Shown in pieces: positions 57,450 to 64,000 of a stretch of 64,000 bases of DNA (within the stretch, counting starts at the first letter, position 1; each line of letters opens with the position of its first letter). The stretch covers positions 62,001-126,000 of the forward strand of contig JAFRRD010000041.1 in NCBI GenBank assembly GCA_017428265.1, read 5' to 3'. The stretch comes from Lachnospiraceae bacterium. Its GTDB lineage: Bacteria > Bacillota > Clostridia > Lachnospirales > Lachnospiraceae. Position numbers and translations under genes: made by a program. The notes under the pieces are model-generated. The model was not told where the DNA came from and searched no databases. It worked only from the letters and a program-made list of their open reading frames with translations.

Positions 57450-58052
57450 ATGTTAAAACACGGTATTCTCGGCCTGATCAGCTACGGCAGTCTGAGCGGT
57501 TACGAGATCATGACGGTGTTCCGGGATTCCCTGAATCATTTCTGGACGGCGCAGACGAGCCAGATCTACCGTGAACTGCAGACGATGGAAAAGGCCGGCT
57601 GGATCAGCGAGACCCATGTTGCGCAGACGGGAAAGCCGGATAAAAATGTATTTTCGATCACGCCGGCGGGGCGTGACGAACTGCTGCGCTGGCTGCGCGA
57701 AGGAGATCTTCCGGCAAATACCAGGCTCCCGTTCCTGATGAAGACTTTCTTCATGGGCGAGCTGCCGGTGGAAGAAAATATCGCATTTTTCAGGGCTATG
57801 CGTGATGAGCATGTCTTCCCGGATGAAGGGAAAAAGGCGTCTTCCGACGCAGAGATGTACCGGAAGGCCATGAAAGATCCCGAAAAAGCGGTCTACTGGA
57901 AGCTGACGATCGCATTTGGCCAAATGTATGAAAAAATGCAGCGCGAGTGGTGCGAATACTGCATCGGGGAACTGGAAGCGCTGCAGCGTATGAAGAGCGC
58001 GCAGGGGCAGGGCTCTGCCGTGACCGTTGATATAGAGGAGGAAGAGCCATGA
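57450..58052 (+). CDS. PadR family transcriptional regulator
   Basis: A 200-residue PadR regulator. Residues 1-85 form the winged helix (LKHGILGLISYGSLSGYEI; TAQTSQIYRELQTMEKAGWI), and residues 95-190 the C-terminal helical dimerisation domain (VirR/AphA-like) with FQMYEKM-type helices. I chose ATG 57450, which has AAAGGGGG upstream and starts the conserved HTH. The gene overlaps the next one by 4 bases, so it is the first gene of the redox operon it probably represses. Confidence 0.92.
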   Translation: MLKHGILGLISYGSLSGYEIMTVFRDSLNHFWTAQTSQIYRELQTMEKAGWISETHVAQTGKPDKNVFSITPAGRDELLRWLREGDLPANTRLPFLMKTFFMGELPVEENIAFFRAMRDEHVFPDEGKKASSDAEMYRKAMKDPEKAVYWKLTIAFGQMYEKMQREWCEYCIGELEALQRMKSAQGQGSAVTVDIEEEEP

Positions 58053-58539
58053 AAGTGATCCTGCATGACCTGGACCGCTGTTATGACGAGGTGATCGGGG
58101 CGAAGTGTGACCGCGCAATCGTGGCAGACGGGAAATACGCGCCCTGCCAGGGCTGTTTTGGCTGCTGGACAAAGCATCCCGCGGAGTGTTTTATGAAAGA
58201 TACGCTGCAGCAGGTCTGCCGCATCATCGGACAGGCGGATGAGATGGTGATCGTGACGAAAAATCTGTACGGCGGATACAGCGCCGCCGTCAAAAACGTA
58301 CTGGACCGCTCGATCGGGACGTCAACTCCGTTCAGCACTTACCGCGGCCGGCAGATGCACCATACGCTGCGCTACGGAAAACACGATCTCTGGAAAGTGA
58401 TCGTCTACGGCGAGATCAGCGAAGCGGAAAAAAGGCAACTTTCCGTACGATGGCGGCGCGGAATGCCGTCAACGACGGCTATGAACGGTCTGAAGTCATC
58501 TTTCTGGACGACCTGACAGAACTGGAGGCAGTGCTATGA
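58049..58539 (+). pseudogene. Iron-sulfur flavoprotein-like gene, frameshifted at an A6 run
   Basis: Flavodoxin-fold NADPH:FMN-reductase-like protein with a compact cluster motif CQGCFGCW(x6)C (C-x2-C-x2-C-x7-C), as in iron-sulfur flavoproteins. In the deposited frame it stops at 58516 after a basic, unlike tail. With one extra A in the run at 58428-58433 the frame continues as KATFRTMAARN...VIFLDDLTELEAVL and ends at 58539 with ATGA overlapping the next start, exactly like its neighbours. The restored frame is therefore the ancestral one. It is a decayed gene, a slippage-decoded gene or a sequencing error. Confidence 0.75.
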
Positions 58540-59282
58540 AAACGGTATTCATCAACTGCAGTCCGAAAAAGCGTTTCTGCGCCTCGGCATATTTCCTTTT
58601 CCTGCAGCGGCTATTTGTCGTCGGCGAAAAAGTTTGCGAAAAACTGCGCACGCCGGCGGATCACGCCCGCATCCTGGAACAGCTCCGGGACGCGCAGGCG
58701 GTCGTGTTCGGCCTTCCGCTCTACGTGGACGCTGTCCCGTCGCACGTGCTCCGCTTTATGGAGGAGATGGAGCGCTTCTGCCGTGAAAACGGCCTGAAAC
58801 TGAGTGTTTACTGTGTCGCCAACAACGGATTTATCGAGGGAAAACAGAACGAACCGCTGATGCAGAACTTCGAAAACTTCTGCAGCCGTGCGGGGCTGAC
58901 CTTCGGCGGCGGTGTCGGGATCGGCGGAGGCGTGATGCTGAACGTGACCAGGATCCTCTTTATCGTGGATATCGGCCTGCTGGTCCTGAACACGCTGCTG
59001 AGCGAGATCAATACAGGGAATCTCTTCCCGAGGGACGCCTGGATCAGCTTTGCGGAGAATGCGGCGCTTCTGCTGTATTTCAACCTGGGGGTGCTGTTTT
59101 ATCTTGCCCGCCAGGGCGGCCATATCCGTAAAGGAACGGCCGGCGGCAAGAAATACACCCGCATCCTGATCCCTTCCTTCATTTTCATCCTGTTCGCGGA
59201 CATTTTCTTCGTCATCATTTCCGTGATCGACGGAGGCATTTTCCGCGGTTGGCTGGCCAAAAAAGAACCGTCTGAGACGTAA
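58536..59282 (+). CDS. Flavodoxin-like protein with C-terminal membrane domain
   Basis: A 248-residue protein. Residues 1-125 form a flavodoxin-fold domain (KTVFINCSPKKR; VVFGLPLYVDAVPSHVLRFMEEM) with a shortened phosphate loop. Residues about 130-245 contain three predicted transmembrane helices (ILFIVDIGLLVLNTLL, NAALLLYFNLGVLFYLA, ILIPSFIFILFADIFFVI). Such a flavoprotein fixed to the membrane could pass electrons to a quinone or membrane partner. The start overlaps the restored end of the previous gene. Confidence 0.78.
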   Translation: MKTVFINCSPKKRFCASAYFLFLQRLFVVGEKVCEKLRTPADHARILEQLRDAQAVVFGLPLYVDAVPSHVLRFMEEMERFCRENGLKLSVYCVANNGFIEGKQNEPLMQNFENFCSRAGLTFGGGVGIGGGVMLNVTRILFIVDIGLLVLNTLLSEINTGNLFPRDAWISFAENAALLLYFNLGVLFYLARQGGHIRKGTAGGKKYTRILIPSFIFILFADIFFVIISVIDGGIFRGWLAKKEPSET

Positions 59283-59298
59283 GAAGAGAGGTCTGATT

Positions 59299-59979
59299 AT
59301 GAAAGTACTGATACTGAACGGCAGTCCGAAGAAAAAGAGCGATACCTTCCGAATGACGGATGCCTTCCTGAAGGGCCTGAACCGGGCAGGAGAGCATGAA
59401 GTCAATATTATCAACGTGATCGACAAAAAGGTCGCGCCCTGTCAGGGGTGCTTCGGCTGCTGGCAGAAAATGGACGGGCACTGCGTGATCGACGACGATC
59501 AGAACGCGATCCTGGACCTCTACACGGCTGCGGACATCATCATCTGGAGCTTTCCGCTGTATGTTTACGGTATGCCTTCGCATCTGAAGGCCGTGCTCGA
59601 CCGCACGATCCCGCTTGTCAAAATGAAGATGCTTGAGGAAGGCGACGGCACGGTACGCCATGAATCTCTTGTGGACTTTTCGAAGAAGCATACGCTGGTC
59701 ATCTGTGGCTGCGGCTTTCCGGACTGGGAAGGCAATTTCGACGGTCTGCGACTGCAGTGCGCGCAGGCATTCCGGGGCTCGCAGATCGTCTGCGTACCGG
59801 AGACGCCCATGCTGAACGTCCCGCAGGCGGCTGTCGTTGCCGATCCTCTTCTTGCCCGCTTTGAGAAGGCGGGAGAGGAGTACGCACAAAACCATTCTCT
59901 CTCACCGGAAACAATTGCGGCCCTCGAGATCCCGATGATCCCGAAGGAAATGTACATCAGGATCGTGAACGGAGGCTGA
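59299..59979 (+). CDS. Iron-sulfur flavoprotein-like / flavodoxin family protein
   Basis: A 226-residue protein of the NADPH-dependent FMN reductase / Isf type. The FMN phosphate loop is LNGSPKKKSDTFRM, and the cluster motif CQGCFGCW(x6)C matches that of the first gene of this operon. FPLYVYGMPSHLKAVLDRT is the family core. It has lower similarity after residue 150. GAGAGG precedes ATG, 17 bases after the previous gene. It is last in the PadR operon. Confidence 0.88.
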   Translation: MKVLILNGSPKKKSDTFRMTDAFLKGLNRAGEHEVNIINVIDKKVAPCQGCFGCWQKMDGHCVIDDDQNAILDLYTAADIIIWSFPLYVYGMPSHLKAVLDRTIPLVKMKMLEEGDGTVRHESLVDFSKKHTLVICGCGFPDWEGNFDGLRLQCAQAFRGSQIVCVPETPMLNVPQAAVVADPLLARFEKAGEEYAQNHSLSPETIAALEIPMIPKEMYIRIVNGG

Positions 59980-60082: not shown

Positions 60083-61024
60083 TTACCACCCGAAGTTTTC
60101 GAAGATGACCAGGTTGCCGAGTTTTTCCGCTGCGGCTGCATCTTCCGGCGTACGGATGGTCCAGCTGACCTCCTGCACCTTGTAGAACTTCCGGCAGATC
60201 TGCAGTTCCGGGATATTCCTCTCGGTGAAGTCGTAGGCGATGAAATCCGGCTGTGCGATGACGTTGGTGAAGAGGTGTTCCACCAGCATGAGACTGAGTT
60301 TCTTCTCGCTGCCGCCGCCGTGTTCCGGCTTGGTCAGGGCGGTGGAAAGCTGCCCGCGCAGGACTTCGGGACGGTTGGCCCGCAGCCAGCAGACCGCCCG
60401 CGGATCGAAGCTTTCGATGACGTAGTGCACGTCGTAGCGGTCCAGCAGTTCCATGGTCTTTGCCGCCAGTTCATTCTGGTTGCCGTTTGCCACCTTCAGT
60501 TCCACGACCATCGGCTCGGGGCGGCCGTTGAAGAGCTTCAGCACGTCCTCAAACAGCGGGATCGTTTCTTCGGTATAGTCCAACTTCAGCTTCGGCAGAT
60601 CCTCGGCGGTCAGGTCCTCGATGACGGCGTCTGCGCCGCACATACGGCCAAGCTTCGAGTCATGCACGACCGCGATATTTCCGTCCTTCATCAGGTGCAG
60701 ATCCAGTTCGATGCCGTAGCCGTGGTCCAAAGCGTCGCGGAAGGCGGCCATGCTGTTTTCCGGCAGGCCTTTGCGGTGCAGGCCCCGGTGCGCATAGCGG
60801 TATTTCCGGAAATGCGACCAGTCGCCGCCTCTGCGGCACTGCAGCGCCAGCAGGACGAGCGCCGCCAGCGGCACGATGACGAAAAGAACGAATAAGAAGA
60901 GATATTTCAGGACTTTGAGCGCCGTCCCGACCCATTCCAGACCGAAGGCAGCCAGCAGCTGCTGACGTCTTTCCCGAGATCTGGCTTTTGCTTTTTTGAT
61001 CTCTTTTTTGCTTCGTTTACTCAT
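60083..61024 (-). CDS. Membrane-anchored glycerophosphodiester phosphodiesterase
   Basis: A 313-residue enzyme that hydrolyses glycerophosphodiesters to glycerol 3-phosphate and an alcohol. A basic N terminus (SKRSKKEIKKAKARSRERR) precedes one transmembrane helix (about 30-58, LKYLFLFVLFVIVPLAALVLL). The GDPD TIM-barrel follows: YAHRGLHRKGLPENSMAAF (catalytic His and substrate loop), IELDLHLMKDG (metal Glu/Asp), VVHD (second His). I chose ATG 61024 with GGAGGAAG upstream. It overlaps the HAD gene by 8 bases. Orientation of the domain, inside or outside, is uncertain. Confidence 0.92.
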   Translation of the reverse strand: MSKRSKKEIKKAKARSRERRQQLLAAFGLEWVGTALKVLKYLFLFVLFVIVPLAALVLLALQCRRGGDWSHFRKYRYAHRGLHRKGLPENSMAAFRDALDHGYGIELDLHLMKDGNIAVVHDSKLGRMCGADAVIEDLTAEDLPKLKLDYTEETIPLFEDVLKLFNGRPEPMVVELKVANGNQNELAAKTMELLDRYDVHYVIESFDPRAVCWLRANRPEVLRGQLSTALTKPEHGGGSEKKLSLMLVEHLFTNVIAQPDFIAYDFTERNIPELQICRKFYKVQEVSWTIRTPEDAAAAEKLGNLVIFENFGW

Positions 61025-61832
61025 GTTCTTCCTCCTCGAGTTTTTCCGCCATCTCATCGATCAGGCGGAAAACGGTCTGTTCGATCTCGCTGCCCTCGCT
61101 GTAGTCGGCGGGGACGATGAAATCCACGCGGTCGTATTGGAGCAGCCTCTCGGCCACCGAAGGGTCGTCGTGCCAGATCCCGATGGAGTGGCCGCCGTTT
61201 TCCTTGGTCAGCTTCATGCAGGGCACGTCGGTGATGCCGTCCCCGATATAGATCATCTGCGAGAACGGGACGCGCTTGTCTTCCTCAGCCATGTGTTCGT
61301 TCAGCAGCTTGTCTTCGTTGAGGTCCAGCACGCCTTTGTTGATGCGGTAGATGAACTGCGTCTTTGCCGTGTAGTTGACGGCAGTCGCCGGCCAGAAAGG
61401 TACCCCTTTTTCGTTGTAGCAGAAAGACGCAGCATAGATCTTCTTGAATTCGCCGGCGATGGACGTGCCTTCGATGATCTCCTTGATGCCCGAGGAAATG
61501 CTGTAATGCTCGGCGGTGAGGCCTTTTGACGCAGCATAGGCATTCACCCGGGAAAACCAGGTATCGACGCCGGGGAAGAGCTCGACGTGGCGGCCCACTT
61601 CGTTCAGTGTCCGGCGCGTCACCAGCTGTTTTCCCTCGGAAAGGCGCAGCATCTCCAGCATGTAGGCCAGGATGCCGTCCATTTCGTATTTCACGGCGGT
61701 GTCGTTGCAGATGCGCCAGAATTCCTTTCCGCTCATGCCGAGCCCGGGGATGAAGGCGTACTCCTCCATATCTCTGGGCGACAGGGTACGGTCGAAATCG
61801 TACATCATGGCAAGGATCGGTTTATCTTTCAT
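61017..61832 (-). CDS. HAD-superfamily phosphatase
   Basis: A 271-residue haloacid-dehalogenase-type phosphatase. Motif I is MMYDFDRTLSP (DxDxT), motif II Ser in SISSG, motif III Lys within the KKIYAAS region, motif IV YIGDGITDVP. The cap is helical and of the PSP-like type (residues about 25-110). Substrate is unknown. Neighbours are a GDPD and a polymerase of glycerol phosphate, so a phosphoglycerol compound is a reasonable guess only. AGGAG precedes ATG. Confidence 0.87.
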   Translation of the reverse strand: MKDKPILAMMYDFDRTLSPRDMEEYAFIPGLGMSGKEFWRICNDTAVKYEMDGILAYMLEMLRLSEGKQLVTRRTLNEVGRHVELFPGVDTWFSRVNAYAASKGLTAEHYSISSGIKEIIEGTSIAGEFKKIYAASFCYNEKGVPFWPATAVNYTAKTQFIYRINKGVLDLNEDKLLNEHMAEEDKRVPFSQMIYIGDGITDVPCMKLTKENGGHSIGIWHDDPSVAERLLQYDRVDFIVPADYSEGSEIEQTVFRLIDEMAEKLEEEEHE

Positions 61833-61855: not shown

Positions 61856-62161
61856 TCAGACGTTGACCGATCCTTCGGATCCGGCCTCGGCGGCTTCGGC
61901 GTCGGCATCGAAGACTTCGGCGTCGGGAGCGGCGATCTCGGCGGCAGCTTTGGCAGCGTCATCCGCGTCATCTTCAAGCAGGACAACCTCTTCCTCGGTC
62001 TCTTTTGCTGTCTCTTCCAGGTGAAGGGTCTCCTGCACTTTCTTTTTGGCCTTGCGGAAACGGATGATCAGGAAAGCACTGACGGCAATGACAACGCCGA
62101 CGATGGCTTCGATCGTGGCGCTCATGACCGCAACATCGATATACAGCGGGATCATTCTCAT
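61856..62161 (-). CDS. Small single-pass membrane protein with acidic tail
   Basis: A 101-residue protein of unknown function. One transmembrane helix (about residues 14-33, ATIEAIVGVVIAVSAFLIIRF), a basic stretch (RKAKKKVQ), then an acidic Ala/Glu/Asp-rich tail (DDADDAAKAAAEIAAPDAEV). AAGGAG precedes ATG 62161. It lies between the YidC fusion and the HAD gene, 13 and 23 bases apart, so it belongs to the same operon. It resembles the small membrane protein at 39687-39989 only in general make-up. Confidence 0.72.
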   Translation of the reverse strand: MRMIPLYIDVAVMSATIEAIVGVVIAVSAFLIIRFRKAKKKVQETLHLEETAKETEEEVVLLEDDADDAAKAAAEIAAPDAEVFDADAEAAEAGSEGSVNV

Positions 62162-62174
62162 GTTCAAAGGCTCC

Positions 62175-64000
62175 TTATTGTTTTTTATTGGTGAGGCGTC
62201 CGATGAGATACCGGGCGCCGTACAGTCCGTGGGTGCCGGGATGGTAGAAATACTGCTCGCGCAGGGCTGCGGCCTTTTCCTCCGAACGGCCGGCGGCGAG
62301 CAGTTCGGCAGCTGCCTTGTCCGCCTGGGCGGCCTCACTTTTTTCGACCGCACGGCCAAGCACGCTACGGAGACGAATCTCCTGCGGCACGATGCCGAGC
62401 GCTTCCCAGTTCGGGTTTTCGACCTTCATCTTCGTGTTCACGAAGAGGACAGGCCTGCCGGTCGCCAGGCCGAACTCGATGCCGATGCCCGACCAGTCGG
62501 TGATGAGCAGGTCGGAGGAATAAACGGAAGAAGCCGCGGAGAAATCATACTCGAAGACCAGGCGTTCCCCTTCTTCGGCGGCATAACGTTCCTTCAGCAG
62601 CTGCAGCCTGTCGGGCCAGCGCTTTGCATACTCGGGATGCGGCCGGACGATCACTTTGTACTCCGCAGCGTACAGGCTCCGGATCAGCTCGTCGGCGCAG
62701 GAATCCAGCAGGTTGTCTTCCTGCCAGCTCGGCGCGATCAGGATCTGCGCGGGTCCTTCCTTCTTCTCCGGCAGGCTCCGGACGCCTTCGACCAGTTCGT
62801 CCATCAGCGGATAGCCGAACTCGACCAGCGTTTTTTCCTTCGTGCCGTAAAGTTTTTCGGCCGCGCGGACCTCGTCTCTGATGTGCGGCCCGGTCATGAA
62901 GACCGTGTCAAAATGGTCCAGGGCATGTTCGCGGAAGCCCATATGGGAACTCGCGGGATCATGCGGCACGTAAATGTATTCGATATCCTTCTTCATCAGC
63001 GAGCGCTTCAGATAGAAGTTTTCCAGGTCCGGCGTGGTCATGACGAAGATGTCGCACTCGAGGCGCATCATCAGGGTCACCATCTTCCTGACGGAGATGT
63101 AGTACGGCAGGATGCGCGGCTCGGTCTTCGCCAGCTCGAAGATCTGGTCTTTCGGGTCGTTTGTGACGTAGTGGATGCGCACGCTCGTCTTTTTCAGCAG
63201 GGTCCCGATGATGTCCTTATAGTAGCGGTAGAAGCCGCTGCGCTCGGAATAGAAGACCAGGTGCTTGTTGTTGATGCTGAAGAAGCGCTTGTAGTCGGCT
63301 TTCTCGCGGGCTTTGTCTTCCTTGGAAATGACCTGTCCGGAGTTCAGCCGGTCCAGCTCCCCGAGAGCTTTGCGGCTTGCTTCCAGTTCCTCATAGTCGA
63401 CGTATTTCTTCGGCGGGATCGCCAGGTTCAGCAGATACAGCTGCAGGACGGCCAGAAGGTTGCTGGCGATCCAATACAGGCCGATGCCGCCCGGAACGAA
63501 GAAGCCCAGAAAGAGCGAGAGCCCGATCGAGAAGATGGACATGCCCCACTGGTTGACTTTGCTCTGTTCGTGCTGCAGCACGTTCGAGCGGTTCTGCGCG
63601 ATGCACAGGGCGGCGGCGGACAGCGCCGCCACGAAGGGGATCACGAGCATTTTGCCCAGCGCTTCGGACGGGACGAGGGTCAGGTCGAAGCCCAGAAAAT
63701 GCATTTCCTGGCCGCCGGCGATCCGTCCGCGGATGACCGCGACGACGCCCATCAGGATGACGATCTGCAGAAAGAGCGGGACGAGGCTGGCCATCGGGTG
63801 ATAGCCCTTTTCCTTATACATCTCGGCCTGCTTTTCGGCGATGGTGTCGGCATCGCCGTAGTAGCGGGCCCTGATGCGGTTCACCGCCGGCTGGATCTCC
63901 ACCATTTTGATGGAGTTTTTCTGGACCCAGACCGAGATCGGCAGCAGGATGATCTTCGATATTAGCGTAAACAGCAGGATGGCCCAGCCGTAATTCATCA
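62175..64000 (-). CDS. YidC/Oxa1 insertase domain fused to CDP-glycerol glycerophosphotransferase (5' end outside window)
   Basis: At least 607 residues. The N-terminal 220 residues are the YidC/Oxa1 core: NYGWAILLFTLISKIILLP with Lys at the usual hydrophilic-groove Arg position, the helical hairpin ADTIAEKQAEMYKEKGYHP, and the final helices GGIGLYWIASNLLAVLQLYLLN. A linker follows, then from about residue 250 a GT-B glycerophosphotransferase of the TagB/TagF type: DLENFYLKRS, PHDPASSHMG, APSWQEDNLLD, VRPHPEYAKRW and TDWSGIGIEFGLATGRPVLFVN. The first transmembrane helix and start lie beyond the window. It is the first visible gene of the minus-strand operon. Confidence 0.9.
   Translation of the reverse strand, partial: MNYGWAILLFTLISKIILLPISVWVQKNSIKMVEIQPAVNRIRARYYGDADTIAEKQAEMYKEKGYHPMASLVPLFLQIVILMGVVAVIRGRIAGGQEMHFLGFDLTLVPSEALGKMLVIPFVAALSAAALCIAQNRSNVLQHEQSKVNQWGMSIFSIGLSLFLGFFVPGGIGLYWIASNLLAVLQLYLLNLAIPPKKYVDYEELEASRKALGELDRLNSGQVISKEDKAREKADYKRFFSINNKHLVFYSERSGFYRYYKDIIGTLLKKTSVRIHYVTNDPKDQIFELAKTEPRILPYYISVRKMVTLMMRLECDIFVMTTPDLENFYLKRSLMKKDIEYIYVPHDPASSHMGFREHALDHFDTVFMTGPHIRDEVRAAEKLYGTKEKTLVEFGYPLMDELVEGVRSLPEKKEGPAQILIAPSWQEDNLLDSCADELIRSLYAAEYKVIVRPHPEYAKRWPDRLQLLKERYAAEEGERLVFEYDFSAASSVYSSDLLITDWSGIGIEFGLATGRPVLFVNTKMKVENPNWEALGIVPQEIRLRSVLGRAVEKSEAAQADKAAAELLAAGRSEEKAAALREQYFYHPGTHGLYGARYLIGRLTNKKQ

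Follow-up and report, generated by a model that had tools for sequence, protein, structure and literature searches.

What is a membrane-protein insertase fold doing in one polypeptide with an enzyme of surface-polymer synthesis? The question is raised by a gene at the end of a 64,000-nucleotide stretch of DNA from a Lachnospiraceae bacterium (GenBank assembly GCA_017428265.1, contig JAFRRD010000041.1, positions 62,001 to 126,000; hereafter the window), whose minus strand encodes, at 62175..64000, a YidC/Oxa1-like domain followed by a TagF-like transferase domain. The YidC-TagF-like architecture is genuine and widespread. We propose, as an account to which we give an even chance, that surface glycopolymers receive head groups from a multi-module transfer machine, of which this protein forms the membrane and cytosolic part.

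An intact and widespread fusion

The full gene starts with an ATG 67 bases past the window end, immediately preceded on its 5' side by a purine-rich stretch, and encodes 630 amino acids (aa; C38:124175-126067, L004:6176-8068). As the original prediction had read from the letters of the DNA, the two domains share one continuous frame: it is uninterrupted from 62175 to 64000, no stop or frameshift was found at 63250-63400, where a check had been proposed, and both halves exceed their Pfam cut-offs. PF02096 covers residues 26-214 (63426..63992; 114.4 bits, E=6.6e-33, cut-off 35) and PF04464 covers residues 265-543 (62439..63275; 48.7 bits, E=7e-13, cut-off 22.1), and the chain also scores 109.1 bits against TIGR03592 (cut-off 84.3).

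Four further genomes of the genus encode orthologues of 630-632 aa (L036, L037, L038, L039). A genome scan gave at least 490 relatives, the best 80 of which were analysed and cover almost the entire query at 44-91% identity; with seven more from whole-genome searches, these make up the 87 loci to which the counts below refer. The fused open reading frame (ORF) is unbroken in all 87, with 605-736 aa in 84 loci and 1180-1200 aa in three, and in L057, L118, L130 and L135 it reaches the contig or locus end. The 87 loci encode 85 distinct proteins (identical pairs are L036/L064 and L056/L107, and L108 is nearly so). The records are titled Lachnospiraceae, Oscillospiraceae, Ruminococcus, Eubacterium, Anaerotruncus and Lacrimispora, among others, with one titled Erysipelotrichaceae and one Saccharibacteria, labels that are given as deposited and unchecked. 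Even sampling shows the fusion to be sparse: it is present in 4 of 120 genomes of the family, each from a different genus, and in 2 of 398 genomes of the phylum, where a third match is an unfused TagF-like protein. In one record, from Anaerotruncus sp. G3(2012) (L105), the fusion gene occurs twice, as near-identical copies that lie on opposite strands and are separated by about 1.3 kb.

The window genome is a draft of 52 contigs, in which two genes could have been merged by an error of assembly or annotation. Such an artefact is next to impossible given that the frame is uninterrupted at all 87 loci from many assemblies, including records without metagenome-bin titles (L105, L122, L129 and L139), and that the fused YidC halves form a single clade; this conservation and the single clade likewise rule out a one-off chimera. 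We found no description of a YidC-TagF-like fusion in the open-licence literature, which is weak evidence of absence; it was not found described in the accessible parts of PMC5898192 and PMC7618853, and the terms 'fused' and 'teichoic' do not occur in those of the latter.

The YidC-like half is a separate paralogue

A simple hydropathy scan of the full protein finds five hydrophobic segments (residues 23-41, 94-112, 131-149, 178-196 and 199-217), and the family profile matches the YidC structure 5mg3 in the PDB (E=3.1e-18). The fusion shares with YidC/Oxa1/SpoIIIJ insertases the five-helix core, the basic residue of the first helix, and conserved Pro, Q101 and YW positions, but it differs from them in forming a separate clade, in carrying an enzyme at the C-terminus in place of a short tail, and in usually coexisting with a canonical-size copy. 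It is not a canonical orthologue, as it falls in its own clade and the same genome encodes a canonical YidC, P0004.

The tree comprised 96 YidC domains: 46 of the 85 distinct fused domains, 18 from proteins in which YidC is joined to an LtaS-like enzyme (the YidC-LtaS-like candidate L068 was left out), and 32 of canonical type. All 46 fused domains lie on one side of a branch with a Shimodaira-Hasegawa-like approximate likelihood ratio (SH-aLRT) of 100, and the 18 YidC-LtaS-like domains form another group with the same support. The canonical-type domains need two changes, because the short paralogues L040 and L041 are weakly placed (support 68) next to the YidC-LtaS-like clade, and L042 forms a very long branch. 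The YidC-TagF join is thus compatible with a single origin, and the LtaS-like enzyme looks to have been joined to YidC separately.

The basic residue of the hydrophilic groove deserves particular attention. In the window's protein it is Lys38 (63954..63956), which aligns with the arginine of Escherichia coli and Bacillus halodurans YidC, and the original prediction, having correctly noted the lysine, took it as a hint of a changed substrate. That meaning does not survive comparison, as lysine is also present in the window genome's canonical P0004 (IVTKVLLTPL) and in 12 of the 32 canonical-type domains, the others having R in 18, N in one and Y in one (basic in 30 of 32). Among the fusions the site is basic in all 73 proteins of our alignment A2 (K in 69, R in 4), which omits the three triple fusions described below, L102, L108, L130, L135 and the seven loci from outside the scan; all 46 fusions of the tree alignment have a basic residue there as well. 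The real groove change belongs to a different clade, as the site is Asn in 18 of 18 YidC-LtaS-like proteins.

The original prediction had also proposed a check for a separate canonical YidC. A PF02096 search of 20 fusion genomes, chosen by us, found a canonical-size copy (frames of 312-517 aa) in 17; no separate copy was found in G009, G163 and G168, an absence that is uncertain since for 8 of 61 relatives the PF02096 search returns no YidC at all.

The TagF-like half belongs to a divergent subfamily

The second half, predicted to be cytoplasmic, resembles TagF and TarL in its PF04464 match and in its RPHP and D-S motifs. TagF has two critical histidines, to which two invariant histidines of the fusion may correspond. 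In the fusion, His369 (62961-62963), His477 of the RPHP motif (62637..62639), Arg475, and Asp524 and Ser526 (62490-62498) are each invariant in 73 of 73 proteins, and His369, His477, Asp524 and Ser526 are candidate catalytic residues. TarL (8va1) is the only PDB match of the family profile of this half, and a remote one (E=0.0011); H477 falls within the matched stretch, where TarL reads hP, and H369 cannot be aligned to a solved structure.

A profile of the fused half scores 154-188 bits against all 13 entries (12 distinct) of TagF-like proteins linked to a YIDP motif, entries that were chosen by that motif, and 9.5 bits against the one canonical TagF tested (L052). A further TagF-like protein, L062, scores 152.7 bits, and the motif was not found in it. 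On these scores, the fused and YIDP-linked TagF-like proteins are one divergent PF04464 subfamily, far from the tested canonical TagF.

Partner modules and their shuffling

Thirteen bases 3' of the fusion gene, on the same minus strand, lies a gene for a protein of 101 aa with a single transmembrane (TM) segment (61856..62161), which begins MRMIPLYIDVAVMSATIEAIVGVVIAVS and whose N-terminus reads MRMIPLYID. Most proteins of this YIDP type follow the pattern YIDPSxxTYxIQAxAG...RRAKKK, frequently after a signal-peptide-like stretch, which suggests that they are oriented N-out, C-in; a Pfam scan found no family that covers them. By a profile built from these same 87 loci, which replaces a text-pattern count of 77 of 87, a YIDP homologue lies within 2.5 kb of the fusion on the same strand at 81 loci and on the opposite strand at none. 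The profile finds nothing within 2.5 kb at L042, L100, L105, L114, L130 and L134, and at L042 a divergent YIDP-type protein (MYLDPGFGG) is recognisable by eye. In 27 of the 87 loci the fusion has a gene for a small S26 signal peptidase nearby (for example, L120:8173-8667), perhaps for the YIDP signal peptide.

The third partner is an LtaS-like membrane protein. Members of one BLAST cluster of such proteins are encoded near the fusion in 53 of the 87 loci, and in three others (L087, L109 and L118) LtaS-like, YidC and TagF modules form a single chain, so that the module is nearby or in-chain at 56. The triple fusions sit at two places in the tree, parted by weakly supported branches. The best solved match of a profile of 25 LtaS-like partners is LtaS itself (2w5q, E=1.6e-9), and the partners conserve Asp, Thr, His and DH positions; unlike LtaS, they share a chain or a gene neighbourhood with YidC-like and TagF-like modules. 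PF00884 is over cut-off in L086, L090, L055 and the L162 fusion. Two points speak against the assignment: the L056 protein reaches only 19.9 bits against PF00884 (cut-off 25), and the 563-aa protein of L042 has no Pfam match.

The window genome itself carries a second arrangement on another contig (L005:8326-12181, G000 C30), where P0002, an 865-aa YidC-TMs-LtaS-like protein with PF00884, is directly followed by P0003, a YIDP-TagF protein. This cluster includes glycosyltransferase-like genes, and the groove site of P0002 is Asn. Genes for YidC-LtaS-like and YIDP-TagF proteins are likewise adjacent in L046, L048-L052, L058, L060 and L063, and in L059 the same pair is separated by a TagD-like gene. 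Long proteins with a His/Asp-rich start, possibly a metal supply for the external enzyme, are encoded just before the YidC-LtaS-like gene in L046, L049 and L050. In addition, genome G569 encodes a YIDP-LtaS-like fusion beside its YidC-TagF fusion.

In all, five fusion combinations occur among four modules (YidC-like, TagF-like, LtaS-like and YIDP), the YIDP-TagF combination resting on a motif. Because the five different fusions draw on the same four modules, they are good gene-fusion evidence that the modules would work together. Free YIDP proteins and the corresponding stretch of TagF have a motif and its place in common, and their homology is not proven; a comparison anchored on the motif, at which both sets were cut, gave 91% probability.

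Gene neighbourhood and likely donor

Downstream of the YIDP gene in the window, both on the minus strand, are genes for an HAD-IB phosphatase (61017..61832), a weak member of the PF06888 Put_Phosphatase family (PF12710 31.6 bits and PF06888 28.5 bits, cut-off 27 for both), and for a glycerophosphodiester phosphodiesterase (GDPD; 60083..61057; PF03009, 75.2 bits) with an N-terminal hydrophobic stretch. This gene order is kept in the four other genomes of the genus. Relatives of the HAD-IB phosphatase act on phosphocholine or phosphoethanolamine, and those of the GDPD on glycerophosphodiesters.

Among the 80 named loci, BLAST clusters place a LicC/PntC-type or phosphoenolpyruvate (PEP)-mutase-linked nucleotidyltransferase anywhere in the retrieved stretch at 45, a phosphonate biosynthesis gene at 16, and one or the other at 48. 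As a rough guide, a 14-kb stretch would hold a MobA-like domain (PF12804) by chance in about 3% of cases, since the window genome has five in 2.16 Mb. In L100, PEP mutase, the decarboxylase and the 2-aminoethylphosphonate (AEP) transaminase all exceed their curated cut-offs. Genome G547 has, in order, PEP mutase, phosphonopyruvate decarboxylase, a nucleotidyltransferase, AEP transaminase, an unfused TagF-like protein (36% identity) and two PF00884 proteins.

In the window genome, whose assembly is 95% complete, no TagD or TarI was seen: its four PF01467 matches are, by eye, of the CoaD, NadD, NMNAT-like and RibF types, and there is a single IspD-family gene. Among its LicC-type genes, one adjoins an amino-acid-type permease and another is fused to a PhnU2-like permease. 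The latter lies outside the window on C38 of the same genome (L157:3035-7467), where an ATP-binding cassette importer has PhnS2-, PhnT2- and PhnU2-like parts and the C-terminus of the permease carries a winged-helix and a nucleotidyltransferase domain, so that uptake and activation by cytidine triphosphate (CTP) are perhaps combined in one chain. Within the genus, a LicC-type gene of at least 90% identity is found in exactly five of 16 genomes, those bearing the fusion, and the best match elsewhere is at most 68%; this co-occurrence may reflect the kinship of those five genomes only, and we do not use it as proof.

The nucleotidyltransferase and phosphonate neighbours, the lack of a visible TagD or TarI, and the HAD-IB phosphatase and GDPD genes therefore favour a CTP-activated amine phosphate or phosphonate as the more likely donor in the window genome, rather than cytidine diphosphate (CDP)-glycerol. 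The CDP-glycerol and teichoic acid label of the original prediction is thus probably wrong, given also the divergent PF04464 subfamily and the 9.5 bits of canonical TagF. Donors may differ between loci, as the TagD-like gene of L059 suggests CDP-glycerol there. At L052, the surroundings of the YidC-LtaS-like gene include a member of the IspD/TarI family (135.5 bits against a cut-off of 166) and a dehydrogenase, considered as TarJ, for which galactitol-1-phosphate dehydrogenase is the best fit.

Farther along the window, at 58049-59979, three consecutive genes resemble, by eye, flavodoxin-type NADPH reductases, next to a PadR-like regulator gene.

Discussion

How might these parts work together? 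In the cytosol, the TagF-like domain would move a CTP-activated phospho- or phosphono-alcohol or amine to a membrane-bound acceptor, the transferred group being phosphocholine, AEP or, in some species, polyol phosphate. The charged head group or lipid-linked product would be held by the YidC-like groove, whose basic residue is conserved, or be flipped by it across the bilayer; outside, an LtaS-like Thr/metal phosphotransferase would hand the group to a surface glycan, and the YIDP protein would bridge the modules. The YidC half would, in that case, be a lipid-handling element of a surface-decoration pathway and not a protein insertase. Since the N-terminus of YidC lies outside and its C-terminus inside, an external LtaS-like domain before it and a cytosolic transferase after it should need no added helices, and the topology of the fusions is consistent. 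We place the first and last enzymes by their homology and infer the passage step between them, as we do the chemistry of the machine.

This head-group model is the simplest way to join two lines of published work. According to PMC10491306, lipids are scrambled in vitro by purified E. coli YidC and, in simulations, by other members of the Oxa1 family; the fold is that of the fusion, and its hydrophilic groove has been proposed to pass lipid head groups, although scrambling is reported there for general phospholipids and canonical insertases, not for a polymer pathway. PntC enzymes, for their part, prefer AEP as substrate, with later steps called enigmatic in the abstract of PMC6697681. Some fusion loci share with that PntC/LicC activation pathway PEP mutase, phosphonopyruvate decarboxylase, AEP transaminase and a MobA-like nucleotidyltransferase, and a term search of the paper's main text found no mention of YidC, glycerophosphotransferase or sulfatase. 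In a more specific version of the model, which we regard as rather doubtful, the Oxa1 fold would have turned into a flippase devoted to a lipid-linked head group of the phosphocholine or AEP type. It would share a chain with the cytosolic transferase that loads the lipid, and cooperate with an LtaS-like enzyme outside, by which the lipid is unloaded onto a surface glycan. If true, such a membrane-spanning assembly line would supply the missing late steps of phosphonate surface tailoring.

Several observations weigh against the head-group model. Flipping is an extrapolation from the behaviour of other YidC proteins. No member of the LtaS-like cluster was seen at 31 of the 87 loci, the window's included, most loci being cut at 6 kb, and the YidC-LtaS-like genes of L043-L045 show no TagF-like neighbour. 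At L161, in an unrelated genome, a TagF-like enzyme has no YidC nearby. The comparison of YIDP proteins with the TagF stretch falls to 55% when unanchored, where a control of sulfatase N-termini gives 71% and three other controls give 0.3-1.1%. As for the donor, the window genome has no PEP mutase over cut-off (the best match, 18.8 bits against a cut-off of 31.5, is Dus-like by eye), PhnS2, PhnT2 and PhnU2 are the best NCBIfam matches of the L157 transporter and are all below curated cut-offs, and the TagD-like gene of L059 reaches 67.5 bits against TIGR01518 (cut-off 165.4).

Perhaps, then, the YidC paralogue only tethers the cytosolic PF04464 transferase near its lipid substrate. The unfused homologue at L161 indicates that the enzyme may not need YidC, and other relatives have a lone YIDP helix as their membrane segment at the N-terminus (P0003 has one hydrophobic segment). 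Passive anchoring is nevertheless unlikely, and does not fit well with the conservation of the YidC half, because this half is conserved like the enzyme half (mean pairwise identity among fusions 56% and 53%, respectively) and its intramembrane polar residues are invariant or nearly so; the groove, moreover, is basic throughout A2, and a separate YidC clade has joined the LtaS-like module, which elsewhere has helices of its own. It could also be imagined that the YidC half is a dedicated insertase, which inserts or folds the YIDP protein and the LtaS-like enzyme beside the polymerase. Small single-TM proteins are typical YidC clients, and the close, co-oriented YIDP genes, the signal-peptide-like N-termini of many YIDP proteins and the S26 signal peptidase genes would suit such a task. 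We think it quite improbable in view of the canonical-size copies found in the same genomes, the absence of a basic groove residue throughout the YidC-LtaS-like clade, and the fusion of YIDP to LtaS-like proteins and, by motif, to TagF, which is the behaviour of a subunit and not of a client. Since those copies occur in 17 of 20 genomes, we do not favour the original suggestion of a physical tie between insertion and polymer synthesis, possible though it is.

A further explanation would be an ordinary teichoic-acid enzyme, that is, a CDP-glycerol glycerophosphotransferase held at the membrane by an odd anchor, in line with the label of the original prediction. A PF04464 score over cut-off and the invariant His369, RPHP and D-S positions would be expected of it, and the TagD-like gene inside the YidC-LtaS-like locus L059, as well as the IspD/TarI-family gene and sugar-alcohol dehydrogenase of L052, lend it some colour, although L052 also encodes a canonical TagF. 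The window genome shows neither TagD nor TarI, however, canonical TagF is remote from the fused subfamily, and LicC/PntC-type neighbours are more frequent, with occasional phosphonate genes; we consequently hold this explanation to be of low probability as well.

With the head-group transfer machine as the preferred account, gene context supports the earlier idea that the insertase fold has been reused in surface-polymer chemistry. A duplicated insertase, a surface-molecule enzyme and two further parts look like an undescribed surface-decorating device of gut Clostridia. The family provides a widespread natural YidC paralogue committed to surface-polymer genes, and the fusion allows a direct test of whether insertase grooves flip lipids physiologically, the two fused clades being cleanly set apart by their groove residue (Lys/Arg in one, Asn in the other). 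For the steps that follow CTP activation of AEP or phosphocholine in gut Clostridia, it also offers three candidates: a transferase, an external phosphotransferase and a small membrane protein.

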